The notes under the pieces are model-generated. The model did no database searches. It was not told the DNA's origin and was given only the letters and a program-made list of their open reading frames with translations. Of a stretch of DNA of 64,000 nucleotides, positions 39,588-45,522 are shown in pieces (positions within the stretch are counted from its first letter, which is position 1; every line of letters starts with the position of its first letter). The translations under genes were made by a program, and so were the position numbers. This DNA comes from Halopiger aswanensis. GTDB taxonomy: Archaea > Halobacteriota > Halobacteria > Halobacteriales > Natrialbaceae. The stretch covers positions 558,001-622,000 of the forward strand of contig NZ_RAPO01000001.1 of the NCBI RefSeq assembly GCF_003610195.1. Reading direction: 5' to 3'.

Positions 39588-40271
39588 TCACGACGTCTCG
39601 CTCGCGCGCTCGAGTCGATCGGCGACTGCCCGGTAGGCGTCGACCGCCTGCGCGTCCGGTCGGTGGTCGCGAACGGGTCGCCATCGTGCCTGTGCGTCGG
39701 CGACCGCAGTCTGCGCAGCGACGAGCGTCACGTCGACGCCGAGCCGCCGGCCGAGCCGGTCGGCGAGGTCGGCGTGGGTACCGCGGTCCGCTTTGTTGAG
39801 AACCGCCGCCCCGAGCGGTGTCTCCAGCGAAGCCACGAGGTCGCTGGTCCGGACTGCATCGACCAGCGCCGCTCGCGAGGGCGTCGTCACGAGCACCGCG
39901 AGGTCGGCACACCGCAGTTCGATACCGACGTCGCGCGCGAGCCCCGCGGGACAGTCGACGACGACGTGCCCCCGCCGTCGTTCGAGCCGGTCGAGTACCG
40001 ACGGGAGTGACTCGAGCGTCGACGCGCGGGCCCCCGAGAGCGTTCGGCCACAGGGGAGAACCGAGACGGAGCCGGCGTCCGCGACCGCCTCGAGCGGATC
40101 CGCGTGGCCGGCGAGCACGTCGTGGAGATCCGGGCCCGCATCGGCTCCGGACGGAAGATCCGGGACCGCGAGGTCGCCGTCGACGACGACGGCGTCGAGT
40201 TCGCGGCCGAGGTTCCACGCCGTCGTCGACTTGCCGACGCCGCCCTTCCCGCCGGCGACGGCGACGATCAT
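39588..40271 (-). CDS. MinD/ParA-family P-loop ATPase (last gene of five-gene operon)
   Basis: This 227-residue protein has the deviant Walker A motif GGKGGVGKSTTAWNLG at residues 7-22, the switch/Walker B region HVVVDCPAGL, and GAAVLNKADRG as a base-specificity-like loop. MinD/ParA ATPases dimerise on ATP and often sit on membranes or bind partner proteins for positioning. Its C-terminus lacks an obvious membrane-targeting helix. It overlaps the small gene upstream by four bases and is the second MinD-like ATPase of this operon, the first being fused to a RecA-like domain. Confidence 0.85.
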   Translation of the reverse strand: MIVAVAGGKGGVGKSTTAWNLGRELDAVVVDGDLAVPDLPSGADAGPDLHDVLAGHADPLEAVADAGSVSVLPCGRTLSGARASTLESLPSVLDRLERRRGHVVVDCPAGLARDVGIELRCADLAVLVTTPSRAALVDAVRTSDLVASLETPLGAAVLNKADRGTHADLADRLGRRLGVDVTLVAAQTAVADAQARWRPVRDHRPDAQAVDAYRAVADRLERASETS

Positions 40272-40675
40272 GGTGTCCGTTCGTCGCCGTCGTACGCCCG
40301 TTCACGCTCGCGCTCGAGACCCAGCACCGCGCTCGTCGGCCGCCAGTCCTCGAGTTCGGCGAGCGTGATGTCCGCCGAGGGCCCCACCGCGTCGGCTTCA
40401 CAGCGCTCGCTCGAGACGACCTCGACGAGCGGCTCCGTCGGCGGCGCCGGACTCGCAACACCGATCCCGCGGCGACGGTTCGGTCGGATCGTCCCGCTCC
40501 AACAGTCCCCGTCCCAGCGCGGATCGGGGACGCCGTTACGCTGCGGGAGCCAGAGAGGACCCTCGAGCCGGCAGCGGAGCCGAACGCGCTGGGGTGTCTC
40601 ACGCGTGTTCGCGACGACGATTTGGACGCGCGTGATCCCATCGCTCCGCTCGCTGCTCGCGTCGATCGTTACCAC
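40268..40675 (-). CDS. Small protein of unknown function in the MinD/TrkA-C operon
   Basis: This 135-residue protein starts MVTIDASSERSDGITRVQIVV and shows an immunoglobulin-like beta pattern: VVANTRETPQRVRLRCRLEG, LWLPQRNGVPDP and a WSGTIRPNRRRGIG edge. It ends with an acidic tail. I do not recognise a domain. It overlaps the preceding gene by seven bases and the following gene by four, so it is made in step with them and is probably a partner of the two MinD-like ATPases or the membrane proteins. Confidence 0.8.
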   Translation of the reverse strand: MVTIDASSERSDGITRVQIVVANTRETPQRVRLRCRLEGPLWLPQRNGVPDPRWDGDCWSGTIRPNRRRGIGVASPAPPTEPLVEVVSSERCEADAVGPSADITLAELEDWRPTSAVLGLERERERAYDGDERTP

Positions 40676-41901
40676 GCTCTCTCACCCGTTTCCGATTCCA
40701 CGCTCGTTGCAGTATCGCCTGTCTCGGCCTCGAGCGCGGCCAACCCGGCCGGCGACGCGAGCAGCCAGCATTCGTCCCCTGCCTCGAGCGTCCGTCGATC
40801 CGGGGGTAGCGGCTGCCGATCGCCGTCGCGCTCGAGGACGAGCACCCGACCGGGGAGCCAGCCGACGAACTCGCCGACGAGCGGGTCGTCGGGTTCGACG
40901 GTTATCGTCGTGACCGTCTGGTCGGCCGTCCGAACCGCGGCGGCGAACTCGTAGCCGTCGGTCGTCTCGTCGGGATGGGCCACGAGTCGGTACCGTTCGT
41001 CGGCCGCGAGGTCGCGAGCGCGATCGGCATCGACGAGAACGGTGGCGACGGACCCGGTCGACGCTCGGAGCGTCCCTGTAGCGACGAGTCGCTCTCGATG
41101 CCGGTCCCACTGGCCTTCTCGCTCGCGTTCGTCAGCCGCCGTTCGCCCGTGTTCTTGCGGTTTCGAGGTCCAGATTTCGACCGGATCGCCGACGCTCGCG
41201 TCCGGCAGTGGGTCCGTCCGAATCGCAACGGCGACGGTCGACGGCGGCAGCAACGATCCGAGTCCGGGCTGGCGTTGCCCGACGCGAACCCGTTCGATGC
41301 TGCCGTCGGACGCCATCGTTACGGCCGCGTAATCGAGGTCGTAGTCGCGCTCGAGGTGGCGCTCGAGCCGATCCCGCCGCTCGGAGATCGACGAGTCGTG
41401 GGGCACCCGAACGGCTGTCCCGGCGAGTTCCTGTCGAACGGCGGGGTCGACCGCTCGGTAGCCGTCCGCGTCGTCGATCGTCTCGGGCAACTCGAGGGCG
41501 ACGGCGAGCCGAGCGGCCCGAACGACCGACGCGGGCTCGCCGTTCGCGTCGATTCGATCGATATCCAGCACCTGTCGAGCGATCCGGTCGCCGAATCGCC
41601 CGCCGGCGGTGCCAACGACACCGGCGACCGCAAACGTCGCGAGCAGATACCCCGCGCTCGCGGGGTGCTCGAGAGGGAGACCCTCGAACACCGTGCCCGT
41701 AGCGAAGACAGCGTACGAGAGGTAGCCGGCGACCGACGATAGCCCCAGGCCGACCGCGACGCCGGCGGGCGCTCCTCGAGTCGTCACCCGCCGGTAACCT
41801 GCCGCGAGAAGGCCGGCAACGACGGCCGACAGCAGCCCGAGTCCTACGATTCCGACCGACGCCTGTCGCAGCAACTCGGCGTAGACCGCGGCGTCGATCA
41901 T
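40669..41901 (-). CDS. Membrane protein with TrkA-C-like cytoplasmic domains (second copy)
   Basis: This 410-residue protein has about three membrane spans in the first 105 residues: QASVGIVGLGLLSAVVAGLL, GVAVGLGLSSVAGYLSYAVF and GYLLATFAVAGVVGTAGG. The rest is a cytoplasmic region with RCK/TrkA-C-like repeats: GSLLPPSTVAVAIRTDPLP and LVGEFVGWLPGRVLVLERDG, ending LEAGDECWLLASPAGL. There is no TrkA-N nucleotide-binding Rossmann motif. It is a diverged relative of the next upstream gene and overlaps it by four bases. Automatic annotation may call such proteins potassium transporters; a regulatory or sensor role is equally possible. Confidence 0.78.
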   Translation of the reverse strand: MIDAAVYAELLRQASVGIVGLGLLSAVVAGLLAAGYRRVTTRGAPAGVAVGLGLSSVAGYLSYAVFATGTVFEGLPLEHPASAGYLLATFAVAGVVGTAGGRFGDRIARQVLDIDRIDANGEPASVVRAARLAVALELPETIDDADGYRAVDPAVRQELAGTAVRVPHDSSISERRDRLERHLERDYDLDYAAVTMASDGSIERVRVGQRQPGLGSLLPPSTVAVAIRTDPLPDASVGDPVEIWTSKPQEHGRTAADEREREGQWDRHRERLVATGTLRASTGSVATVLVDADRARDLAADERYRLVAHPDETTDGYEFAAAVRTADQTVTTITVEPDDPLVGEFVGWLPGRVLVLERDGDRQPLPPDRRTLEAGDECWLLASPAGLAALEAETGDTATSVESETGERAW

Positions 41902-43178
41902 CCGTCGGTCACCTCGCGTTCTCGAGAAGGCGGTGTGGCGACGAACGCGCGGGTCGGCGTCGCCGTCGTCGGCGCAATGCGATCAGTATCGGTGTCGGTC
42001 GCTCCGCTGGTATCGACGGTGTCGACGGTCCCGTCCCGGTTCTCGCTCCCGTTCCCATCGACAAACGCCCACTCGTCCCCGCTGTGAACGCCCAGTACCT
42101 CGTCCGCAGTGAGACCGATATCGCCGTCCTCGAGTACCTCACGGCCCTCGAGTGCGGTGATCGGTCGCCCGGCCGCCTCGAGAAGCGCCGCGGCCTCGAA
42201 CGCGGGCGCGTCGCCGCTCGGGAGAACGGCGATCCGACAGCGATCGGCACCGAGTAATCGGCCGGCGTCGCTCGCTGCGACACGCACTGTGAGCCGTCCC
42301 GGACCGCCCTCGAACCCGGCATCCGCAGCGCGGAAGCCGATCGGCCGGGACGGAGAACGGGCGTCCGACTCGCCTTCCTCTGACGAAGCCGCACTACAAA
42401 CCGCGAGGACGTCGGCCTCGAGGGTTGCGGTGACGGCGGACTCGTCACCGTCGCTGTCACCAGCGACCCCGATCGCGACGCGGTCGCCCGGTTCGATCCC
42501 CGTCGGAAGCAACCCGGTGACCGTGACGGCTCGCGTGCCGCCGGCGAGCGACGTCGCGATAGCTCTCGTCGGCGGTGCGGCGGTGATCGTCGCGCGGCCC
42601 CGGCCGTCGATCGCGACGGCTACCTTCGACAGGTCGTGCGTCGACCGGAGCCGTTGCTCGAGTCGTCGCTCCAGTTCCGAGAGTTGCAAGTCCGCAGGGA
42701 ACCGCCAGGAACCATCTGCGAGGGCCGTCCGCAGGTCCGGTGACAGCCCCGGATAGCCGTCGAACTCGCGGATCGAACCGGCCGAGCGGACCGTCACCTG
42801 CCCTATTGCGTCGACAGCATCGATCGCGTCCGCGGACAGGGCCGTACCGCGCACGAGCGGCACCGCCCGATCCCGCGGGAGTTCGGTCGCAATCCGGTTC
42901 CCCTGCGCGACCGCGATGATTCCAAACGTCCCAGCGACAGTCGCCGCCAGCACGACTCGAGGACCGTGCTCGAGGCCGGCACTCGGGTCGAAAATCCCGA
43001 CGACGATGCCCGCACCGATCGCGACCGGAACTGTGGCAAGCCCGGCGGCAAGAGGGAGGGTTCGATCGGCGCCGATCCCGACAGCGAGTACACCGAGACC
43101 GGCGAGCAGCGCCGGTCCGAAGCCGAGCAGTAACCCGTACGCGATGCCGAGCAGCGACTCGTACGGTAGATCGGTCAT
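41898..43178 (-). CDS. Membrane protein with TrkA-C-like cytoplasmic domains (first copy)
   Basis: From the ATG at 43178 (426 residues; the frame opens 21 codons earlier) the protein has three to four membrane spans in the first about 110 residues (SLLGIAYGLLLGFGPALLAG, LPLAAGLATVPVAIGAGIVV, VVLAATVAGTFGIIAVA). A cytoplasmic region follows with TrkA-C-like beta-rich units (GLLPTGIEPGDRVAIGV, GPGRLTVRVAASDAGRLLG and LTADEVLGVHSGDEWAFV). No TrkA-N domain or channel selectivity filter is visible. It starts four bases after the MinD-RecA gene stop. Shares architecture with the next gene. Confidence 0.78.
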   Translation of the reverse strand: MTDLPYESLLGIAYGLLLGFGPALLAGLGVLAVGIGADRTLPLAAGLATVPVAIGAGIVVGIFDPSAGLEHGPRVVLAATVAGTFGIIAVAQGNRIATELPRDRAVPLVRGTALSADAIDAVDAIGQVTVRSAGSIREFDGYPGLSPDLRTALADGSWRFPADLQLSELERRLEQRLRSTHDLSKVAVAIDGRGRATITAAPPTRAIATSLAGGTRAVTVTGLLPTGIEPGDRVAIGVAGDSDGDESAVTATLEADVLAVCSAASSEEGESDARSPSRPIGFRAADAGFEGGPGRLTVRVAASDAGRLLGADRCRIAVLPSGDAPAFEAAALLEAAGRPITALEGREVLEDGDIGLTADEVLGVHSGDEWAFVDGNGSENRDGTVDTVDTSGATDTDTDRIAPTTATPTRAFVATPPSREREVTDG

Positions 43179-43182
43179 CGGC

Positions 43183-44493
43183 TCACCTCTGGTCACCGCG
43201 GTCGGCGTTCGATGGCGACTCGATCGGGTCCGTACCCGCATTCACGGCGTCGAAATCGATCGGAACCGTGCCGATCGCGCCGGCGTCCGGTCGGTACTTA
43301 GTCACCGAAACGGCGTGGCCGACACCCGCCTCGAGGCCGGAACCGACGGTCTCGAGTTCGAACACGGCGTCGGCCACTCGAAGCGTCGCCGACCGATTGG
43401 CGGGGTCATCGAGGCAGTGGAGGATCGCGAGGCCGCCGGTTTCGGTCACCCGCTCGGACAGCGTATCGAGGAACGAGACGTACGCCGAGCGATCCCGTCG
43501 CTCGAGTTCGTCGACCGGATCGACGATTAACGTGGCCGCGTCCGGGAGGTTCTCGACGAGCGTCGTCGCCTCCTCGAGGGCGTCGGCGCCGGCGACGCGT
43601 CTGATCGTCGGTTCGCCGGCGGCGACCGTAGCCGTCTCGATGGCACGCCGAACCGTGTCCCGCGACTGTTCTGTCGAGAGATAGAGTGTCCCGCGGAGTT
43701 CGGTCGCTCGGTAGAGGAGCCGCTCGGCCTGACTCGCGGGATCGGCGACGAGCGCGACGATAGAGCCCGCGGGGAGCCCGTCGTCGAGGTGCCGATCGAG
43801 GGCGTCCGCGCCGATGGGGAGCCGATCGCCGTCGGTCGTCGGCGGCGCCCGTTCGCGCGGGGACTGTGCGCGCAACCGCTCGACGATCTCGTCGAACGCC
43901 GCCGCGACCTCCTCGTTCGCCAGCGGCGAGGGGCGGTCGGGGACGCAGCCCAGTATCGGCACGCCGCGCCACTCGGCCGCGCGGTCGGGCACCTCGGATC
44001 GACGGTTCATGACGGCGCCGTAGATCGGGACGCCGAGTCGCCGCGCCACGTCGATCGTCGTCTCCGCGGCCTCGAGGCTCCGCTCGGAATCGCCGGCGAC
44101 GACGATCACGCCGTCGGCGCTCCGAAGCGGTTCGACGAGGTCGGGGCCGGCGCCGGCGGGGCAGTCGAGCAGTACCTGCGTGCCCTGGAGGTCGCCCCGA
44201 TCGGCGAGGGCGTCGAACTCGAAGGCGTCCGCCGGTTTCGGTGCAGGAACGATCCCGACGGCCGATTCGCGTGGATGTTCCTGTGCGATCTCTTTCAGCG
44301 TCGAGTCCCGCTTGAGGGCGGCGAGCGTCGGCTCCCGGTCCCGATCGGTCACGACGTGCAGGTTCGGTAGCTGTCGGTCGGCGTCGATCGCGATCGCCGG
44401 GGTTGGAGGATCTGCCCTGGCGAACGCGGTCGCGAGACCCATCGTGACCGTGGATTTGCCACAGCCGCCTTTCGAGCCAGCGATGGCGATCAT
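43183..44493 (-). CDS. MinD-like ATPase fused to a degenerate RecA/KaiC-like domain
   Basis: This 436-residue protein is the first gene of the operon. Residues about 1-225 are a MinD/ParA ATPase with deviant Walker A AGSKGGCGKSTVTMGLA and a Walker B-type VLLDCPAGAG. Residues about 230-410 follow the KaiC/RadA pattern: LPIGADALDRHLDDGLPAGS, then VALVADPASQAERLLYRATE where the P-loop should be, and ATLIVDPVDELE as Walker B. The expected GxxxxGK[ST] is missing from the second domain, so it probably does not hydrolyse ATP. A GTTCATAAG element 23-31 bases upstream is a promoter candidate. Confidence 0.85.
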   Translation of the reverse strand: MIAIAGSKGGCGKSTVTMGLATAFARADPPTPAIAIDADRQLPNLHVVTDRDREPTLAALKRDSTLKEIAQEHPRESAVGIVPAPKPADAFEFDALADRGDLQGTQVLLDCPAGAGPDLVEPLRSADGVIVVAGDSERSLEAAETTIDVARRLGVPIYGAVMNRRSEVPDRAAEWRGVPILGCVPDRPSPLANEEVAAAFDEIVERLRAQSPRERAPPTTDGDRLPIGADALDRHLDDGLPAGSIVALVADPASQAERLLYRATELRGTLYLSTEQSRDTVRRAIETATVAAGEPTIRRVAGADALEEATTLVENLPDAATLIVDPVDELERRDRSAYVSFLDTLSERVTETGGLAILHCLDDPANRSATLRVADAVFELETVGSGLEAGVGHAVSVTKYRPDAGAIGTVPIDFDAVNAGTDPIESPSNADRGDQR

Positions 44494-44568
44494 ACCCGCT
44501 CTGGCCGCGCCATCCCTTATGAACTCCCGCTTGCGCGGGTCGGCCGGAAAAATAGAACGACGGGCTGC

Positions 44569-45522
44569 TCAGTCCGACGACGCCTCGCTCCCGTCGGCCG
44601 ACTCGTCGGACGCAGTCCCGGACTCGGACTCGGACTCGCTCGAGTCCGCGCCCGAACTCGACCCCCGATTCGCCCAGTCGCCGTAGAGGTACGACCGTTC
44701 GTAGCCCGCGCCGGTCACGGCGTCGCCGATGACGACCAGCGCGGAGGCGCGGTAGCCGGCCTCCTCGACCTTGTCGGCGATGTCGGCGATCGAACCGACG
44801 AGCACGTCCTCGTCCGGCCAGGAGGCGTGGTAGATCACCGCGACCGGCGTCTCGGGGTCCGCGCCGTCTTCGAGCAGGCGATCCATCGTGTCCCGGACGG
44901 CGTGGGTCCCGAGGTAGATACAGGTCGTCACGTCACCCATCTCCACGAATTCGGCAATGTGGTCCTCCTCGGGCTCGAGCGTCTTGCCCTGCGGGCGGGT
45001 GAATGCGACGTGGTTCGACACCTCGTTGAGCGTCAGTTGTGTCCGCAGCGTCGCGCTCGCGGCGAAGGCGGAGGTGACGCCGGGGACGAAGTACGTCGGC
45101 ACGCCCTCGTGTTCCAGCGCGTCCATCTGCTCGAGAGCGGCCCCGTAAATTGCCGGATCACCGCTGTGGAGTCGGACGACGTTGCGCCCCTCCTCGTAGG
45201 CGTCCCGCATCAGCGGGATGAGCTCCTCGAGGTCCTTGCCGACCGAGTTCACGAGTTCGGCGTGCCCGCAGTATTCGTCGAGCAGTTCGCTGTTGACCAG
45301 CGAGCCCGCGTGGACCACGAGGTCCGCGTCCTCGAGCAGTTCCTTCCCGGCGACGGTCAGCAGGCGCGGGTTGCCGGGCCCGGCGCCGACGAACGGGATG
45401 CCCTCCTGCTCGTCGCCGGCGCTGTGCTCGAAGACGCGGTCGTCGAGTTGCTCGCGCCGGCGGTCGGACTGGGAGTCGATCGCCGTCTGCGGGTCGTTCG
45501 CGTCCGAGGTGTCGTCGCTCAT
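44569..45522 (-). CDS. cbiF: Cobalt-precorrin-4 C11-methyltransferase
   Basis: This 317-residue protein is a SAM-dependent tetrapyrrole methylase. After an acidic lead of about 40 residues, IPFVGAGPGNPRLLTV opens the fold, with VHAGSLVN, LHSGDPAIYGA, YFVPGVTSAFAASATL and LTLNEVSNHVAF following, all CbiF/CobM-type. It methylates C11 of the corrin precursor. The C-terminus is Ser/Glu/Asp-rich and disordered. It overlaps cbiL by four bases, making cbiT-cbiL-cbiF one coupled set. Confidence 0.93.
   Translation of the reverse strand: MSDDTSDANDPQTAIDSQSDRRREQLDDRVFEHSAGDEQEGIPFVGAGPGNPRLLTVAGKELLEDADLVVHAGSLVNSELLDEYCGHAELVNSVGKDLEELIPLMRDAYEEGRNVVRLHSGDPAIYGAALEQMDALEHEGVPTYFVPGVTSAFAASATLRTQLTLNEVSNHVAFTRPQGKTLEPEEDHIAEFVEMGDVTTCIYLGTHAVRDTMDRLLEDGADPETPVAVIYHASWPDEDVLVGSIADIADKVEEAGYRASALVVIGDAVTGAGYERSYLYGDWANRGSSSGADSSESESESGTASDESADGSEASSD

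Follow-up and report, generated by a model that had tools for sequence, protein, structure and literature searches.

The locus described here occupies positions 39588-44493 of a 64,000-nucleotide stretch of the Halopiger aswanensis genome (contig NZ_RAPO01000001.1, positions 558,001 to 622,000; the window denotes this whole stretch), and consists of five open reading frames (ORFs), all confirmed on the minus strand and designated genes A to E. Gene A (43183..44493) encodes a protein of 436 amino acids (aa) in which a MinD/ParA-type ATPase domain (about residues 1-190) is fused to DUF7125 (224-401). Gene B (41898..43178, 426 aa) encodes a membrane protein which, as judged from hydropathy and homology to C, has N-terminal transmembrane (TM) helices and a divergent RCK_C-like C-terminus, and gene C (40669..41901, 410 aa) a membrane protein with three TM helices, alpha/beta and beta-rich parts and a C-terminal RCK_C domain. 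The product of gene D (40268..40675, 135 aa, GTG start) is a DUF7857 protein with an Ig-like beta-sandwich and two C-terminal helices, and that of gene E (39588..40271, 227 aa) is a MinD-type ATPase assigned to the lineage of MinD1 (HVO_0225) of Haloferax volcanii. A and B are separated by a 4-base gap (43179-43182), and the remaining junctions overlap by 4 (B/C), 7 (C/D) and 4 (D/E) bases, exactly as given in a first-pass annotation made from the sequence alone. A TATA-like TTCATAA is located on the minus strand at 44517..44523, 24-30 bases 5' of the start codon of A (ATG). Of 12 other carriers read, 11 have TTCAAAA/TTCAAGA or TTTATA at a similar distance before A, the exception (L155) being a mis-called start. 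As this spacing is nearly constant, the operon probably begins at A as a leaderless transcript from the predicted promoter. A tetrapyrrole methylase gene is located upstream on the same strand (44569-45522), and A-E are probably transcribed apart from these cobalamin-type genes. Between the methylase stop and the TATA-like box (44523-44570) there is a small inverted repeat, CCCGC-GCAA-GCGGG.

Both terminal genes encode ATPases with a deviant Walker A motif (KGGCGKS in A, KGGVGKS in E) and matches to ParA/MinD families, in line with the two distinct MinD-type ATPases recognized earlier. Scores against the NCBIfam model for cell-division MinD, TIGR01969, were 111.6 for E and 60.9 for A, below its cut-off of 201.75, and domain profile searches gave no REC domain match in either protein, both of which begin at the P-loop. 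With respect to A, Pfam matches were to CbiA/ParA and DUF7125 (1e-37). It had been read as a MinD-RecA fusion, with the remark that KaiC/RecA-like domains often sense state; the fusion stands, and the "RecA" half is DUF7125, which has a KaiC-like fold and in which an ADPASQ-type sequence replaces the P-loop, in A as well as the DUF7125 proteins read. With the P-loop missing, ATP-dependent state sensing by this half is unlikely.

B and C are mutually homologous (hhalign probability 99.9%, E-value 1.5e-34). An RCK_C/TrkA-C domain was identified in C by hidden Markov model, with a weak TrkA_C match in Pfam, and by Foldseek, while B itself has no Pfam TrkA_C match, so that the TrkA-C-like character previously given to both rests for B on its commoner orthologue, which matches TrkA_C at 6e-12. 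Neither protein contains a pore family, a selectivity-filter motif or a detectable TrkA_N (RCK_N) Rossmann domain, and no pore or TrkA_N match was obtained for A-E as a set; an ordinary Trk system is thereby ruled out, in agreement with the earlier view of two related membrane proteins that are not a potassium transporter. The AlphaFold2 model of C (predicted local distance difference test score, pLDDT, 84.5) has helices at 4-39, 48-68 and 80-111 followed by alpha/beta and beta-rich parts, with RCK_C placed at about 304-394; its predicted template modelling score of 0.48 leaves the domain arrangement unsure. The solved folds nearest to C by Foldseek were BusR, MthK and KhtT, some of them bound to cyclic di-AMP (c-di-AMP). 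D matches DUF7857 (Pfam, 1.4e-21) and was modelled (AlphaFold2, pLDDT 87.7) as a six-stranded beta-sandwich with two helices, for which Foldseek returned generic beta-sandwiches only, none at an E-value <= 0.001.

The distribution of the genes was followed in 116 Halobacteria genomes and 14 control genomes (G- and L-numbers are labels of sampled genomes and loci). The MinD-DUF7125 fusion, operon-type B-C and D-E occur together in about 15 of the 116 (G000, G005, G025, G045, G046, G050, G052, G058, G069, G077, G079, G085, G089, G091 and G107), G045 being a remnant. In G045 (L102, L033), which is without DUF7311, the locus has decayed, fragments of a HerA-like gene and A (DUF7125) are joined, and B was not found. 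A scan of named genomes gave 13 loci with C, and operon-type C is carried by Natrialba, Halopiger, Haloarcula rara, two species of Natrinema, Halorientalis, Natronorubrum, Salinadaptatus, Halobiforma, Natronosalvus, Halapricum and a Natrialbaceae metagenome-assembled genome (counted as 11 named genera besides the last), which bears out the proposal of a unit conserved in haloarchaea. Gene order, whose conservation had been named beforehand as a sign of a unit, varies. The order A-B-C-D-E is shared by the window, G005, G077 and Salinadaptatus, while other carriers have B-C-D-E-A (Haloarcula rara), a convergent A (Halorientalis, G058), B-C-A facing E-D (G050, G079, G089) or split groups; all five genes are kept in the split copies of G025, G091, G107, G052, G085 and G069. 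Operon-type B and C each form one clade, separate from the commoner pairs with tree support of 0.995 and 1.0, and the rows counted as misplaced in these trees, L109 and L102, are carriers absent from the carrier list. Operon-type E is likewise one clade (support 97/96), including the D-E pair of G069, in which the other set genes are dispersed; its sister is the mcm-locus E of G057 and G087, in a tree whose outgroups were poor, badly framed ORFs and of which only the ingroup split was used. Both of these genomes carry the MinD-DUF7125 fusion at the usual DUF7125 locus, without operon-type B-C. The operon type is present in two families, and transfer is therefore possible.

In most carriers, part or all of the set lies beside a type IV pilus operon encoding a HerA-like ATPase, DUF7310 (coiled coil), DUF7311, PilB (T2SSE), PilC (without a Pfam match and named from its place and length), DUF7283, DUF7285, DUF7284 and DUF7286. 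Genes of A-E are physically linked to it in G005, G046, G052, G058, G077, G079, Halorientalis, Natrialba, Natronosalvus and others. Since the set and its pilus linkage recur in many genera, the set is more than a chance grouping. DUF7311, used as the pilus marker, was present in 85 of the 116 genomes, and its occurrence was compared with that of D: 84 genomes had both, 30 had neither and 2 were discordant (Fisher p 1.8e-25, relatedness ignored). When states were shuffled within genera, a mean of 13.75 discordant genomes was obtained versus the 2 observed (p = 5e-5). Five genera hold both states and are concordant except for G100, and the double negatives (n = 30) are spread across 20 genera. 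Because most double negatives lack DUF7286 as well, with fragments only in G012, G056 and G067, the pattern does not reflect the poor sensitivity of one model. Where the pilus is absent, E is best matched mostly by other MinD paralogues, at 31-39% identity, and E appears to have been mostly lost along with D. The HerA-like ATPase gene also follows the pilus (81 both, 30 neither); in other haloarchaea this HerA/DUF87-like gene (L096:5760-6815) is often far from the pilus, and genus g28 has the pilus without it. G058 carries two D-E pairs, one of the mcm type and one of the operon type, and two DUF7311 loci. It is also the only genome with both DUF7856 and the five-gene set; these are otherwise nearly exclusive, which suggests that two alternative partner sets serve one kind of pilus. 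Among the traits of pilus subclade 4F (Cys-rich PilB N-terminus, TadC-like protein, cytoplasmic coiled-coil protein), a Cys-rich PilB start was read in L096 and DUF7310 is a coiled coil. For the H. volcanii PilB of the DUF7311 pilus, PilB4 and subclade 4F were considered as candidates. Taken as a whole, we regard it as likely that A-E are associated with the haloarchaeal type IV pilus.

DUF7857 is present in 85 of the 116 Halobacteria, and among the 14 control genomes only H. volcanii has DUF7857 or DUF7311, a comparison that is the one bearing from beyond the class on the suggested restriction to haloarchaea. Nearly all of the 40 extended loci that were read first have a MinD gene after DUF7857 on the same strand (none was seen in L049 or L056). 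Outside Natrialbaceae, D-E is mostly found in the block MCM - DUF7854 - (DUF7504) - DUF7855 - DUF7856 - DUF7857 - MinD, followed by TFB, DUF7858, a ParA-like gene and HIT (example L061:6488-11593, among loci L031-L070). In H. volcanii, MCM is HVO_0220 (PMC3972481), MinD1 is HVO_0225 (PMC11621097) and TFB is HVO_0226 (PMC13286277), which fits this block; E is thus placed in the MinD1 lineage and D is taken to correspond to HVO_0224, the tags being assigned through gene order. The D-E pair is older and wider than the five-gene set. MinD2-HVO_0596 was considered as the counterpart of D-E and ruled out, as synteny indicates the mcm locus and HVO_0225; that pair resembles D-E in placing a MinD gene beside a small conserved protein, and differs in its locus and in having HVO_0596 downstream, where D lies upstream of its MinD. 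In Haloferacaceae-like genomes (e.g., L061:6488-7261) D has a C-terminal extension, absent from operon-type D, which brings it to about 240-310 aa in total. DUF7856 mostly follows the pilus outside Natrialbaceae, so DUF7855 and DUF7856 may be pilus genes too. In G100 (C1:2610802-2611221) the DUF7856 match ends halfway, DUF7857 is missing and the pilus is kept, a probable recent deletion at the mcm locus.

A, B and C have older homes of their own, which the first-pass annotation had overlooked along with the mcm home of D-E. In many genomes MinD lies next to DUF7125 in a two-gene unit at its own locus, where the two are fused in G057 and G087. A K+ channel gene (Ion_trans_2 and TrkA_N, without TrkA_C) lies in divergent orientation to the commoner B-C pair, with a USP/HPP gene nearby, in most loci read. 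At L111:4567-9943, such a channel with TrkA_N and without TrkA_C stands divergent from a pair of TrkA_C membrane-protein genes, and the missing domain may come in trans. This neighbourhood, and the gating of K+ systems by RCK_C domains, would suit a potassium or osmotic control unit in which B and C regulate, as subunits, a K+ channel or transporter whose gene lies elsewhere and the MinD ATPases only localise them. Operon-type B-C, however, is a separate clade linked to pilus genes instead of the K+ channel gene, beside which it was not found in the loci read, and A-E encode neither pore nor TrkA_N, which leaves this explanation unlikely.

We propose, at a probability of roughly 0.6, that A-E are a module that positions and controls one haloarchaeal type IV pilus in the manner of TadZ/CpaE, a reading preferred because it accounts at once for co-loss, linkage, copy number and domain content. 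What is observed directly is which genes make up the set, which domains they encode and that the set is inherited along with the pilus. A-E would constitute a cytoplasmic and membrane control module for the pilus made of PilB-PilC with DUF7283-7286, DUF7310 and DUF7311. E, as a MinD1-type ATPase, would alternate between membrane-bound and released states and, helped by D as partner or adaptor, may mark the assembly site of the PilB-PilC motor, as TadZ/CpaE does for Tad pili. CpaE, a ParA/MinD ATPase, has been modelled as a ring that encircles the motor CpaF (PMC13170226), TadZ resembles archaeal arCOG00589 (PMC6668835), and a FleN/MinD ATPase was predicted for euryarchaeal type IV pili (Makarova 2016, PMC4858521). 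A would contribute the other MinD ATPase, joined to a KaiC/FlaH-like pseudo-ATPase that could dock on PilB as FlaH does on FlaI. B and C would together make up a complex in the membrane; its RCK_C domains would detect a small ligand (K+ status or c-di-AMP), and the complex would recruit or release the MinD proteins, so that pilus assembly takes place when osmotic or surface conditions are suitable. H. volcanii makes c-di-AMP, for which an osmoregulatory role has been proposed (PMC6741144); that B or C binds it is a guess. We infer the physical contacts, the ATP cycling, the ligand sensing and the direction of control. Chances are about even for the TadZ-like positioning or assembly role, and the ligand-gated step is doubtful.

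Several observations weigh against this proposal. In the genome of the window itself the pilus operon is ~130 kb away (C1 about 454-466 kb versus 597.6-602.5 kb for the five genes), and G100 keeps the pilus without D. E has no obvious C-terminal membrane-targeting helix and no TadZ-style REC domain. Commoner paralogues of A and B-C are also present where the pilus is absent (in all, DUF7125 is found in 113/116 genomes and C-like proteins in 96/116); being nearly universal, they rule out that A, B and C are tied to the pilus as strictly as D-E. Our literature search gave no report on adhesion or piliation of a minD1 mutant.

About as improbable as K+ control is a general spatial organiser of chromosome, archaellum, chemoreceptors or cell shape, with the pilus merely one neighbour. 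MinD2 and MinD4 of H. volcanii do act on motility, CetZ1 and the chemotaxis machinery (PMC11588486, PMC11621097), but deletion of MinD1/2/3/4 gave nothing beyond minD2/4 in motility (PMC11621097), and many genera show joint loss of D-E and the pilus. Less probable again is a novel type of ligand-gated (c-di-AMP or K+) spatial switch in which the two MinD ATPases and the KaiC-like pseudo-ATPase couple the RCK_C membrane sensors to a pilus whose HerA-like ATPase moves DNA or protein, e.g., a machine for DNA exchange among haloarchaea, akin to the Ups/Ced pair of crenarchaea. That pilus and A-E share only history as a co-transmitted genomic island, as clustering in several genomes and presence in two families might allow, is the least credible, given that D-E tracks the pilus even at the distant mcm locus and split copies keep the whole set.

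The proposed pilus module resembles TadZ/CpaE in having a ParA/MinD ATPase with a deviant Walker A tied to one type IV pilus-like motor. The module and the motor are encoded together in many carriers and not in the window. It differs from TadZ/CpaE in its second MinD protein, in the fusion of one of the two to DUF7125, in its pair of RCK_C membrane proteins and in lacking a REC domain, and because of the last A-E are not classed as TadZ. To our knowledge, D has no counterpart in TadZ/CpaE systems. D and E are of the MinD1-HVO_0224 lineage, operon-type E being set apart from MinD1 by its own clade and by its union with A, B and C. As in FlaH/ArlH and the KaiC-like ATPases of archaeal pili, DUF7125 is KaiC-like; unlike them, that of A has lost its P-loop and is fused to MinD. 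C, and the family of B, share a C-terminal RCK_C with TrkA/Ktr/MthK proteins, from which B and C differ in having TM helices of their own and neither TrkA_N nor pore. The membrane-bound positioning or sensor machine suggested at the outset is largely supported as the best inference, its pilus cargo having been missed. It had also been called the most likely undescribed system in the window. A MinD ATPase of arCOG00589 serving such pili was foreseen in general terms (PMC4858521), in a text that, as consulted, mentions neither a particular paralogue of haloarchaea nor D, DUF7125 or the two RCK_C proteins; the literature searched, which did not extend to the named supplementary tables, gave no mention of the specific MinD paralogue, its partner D, the fusion to a KaiC-like domain or the paired RCK_C proteins.

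In one predicted transcript, the operon unites modules found at three separate places in other haloarchaea, and so suggests which dispersed haloarchaeal loci work together. It provides a testable role for MinD1, a conserved archaeal MinD without a described function, and names HVO_0224, a DUF7857 protein, as its probable partner. If the proposal is true, TadZ-like pilus positioning would be common to archaea and bacteria, with an RCK_C sensor layer in addition.

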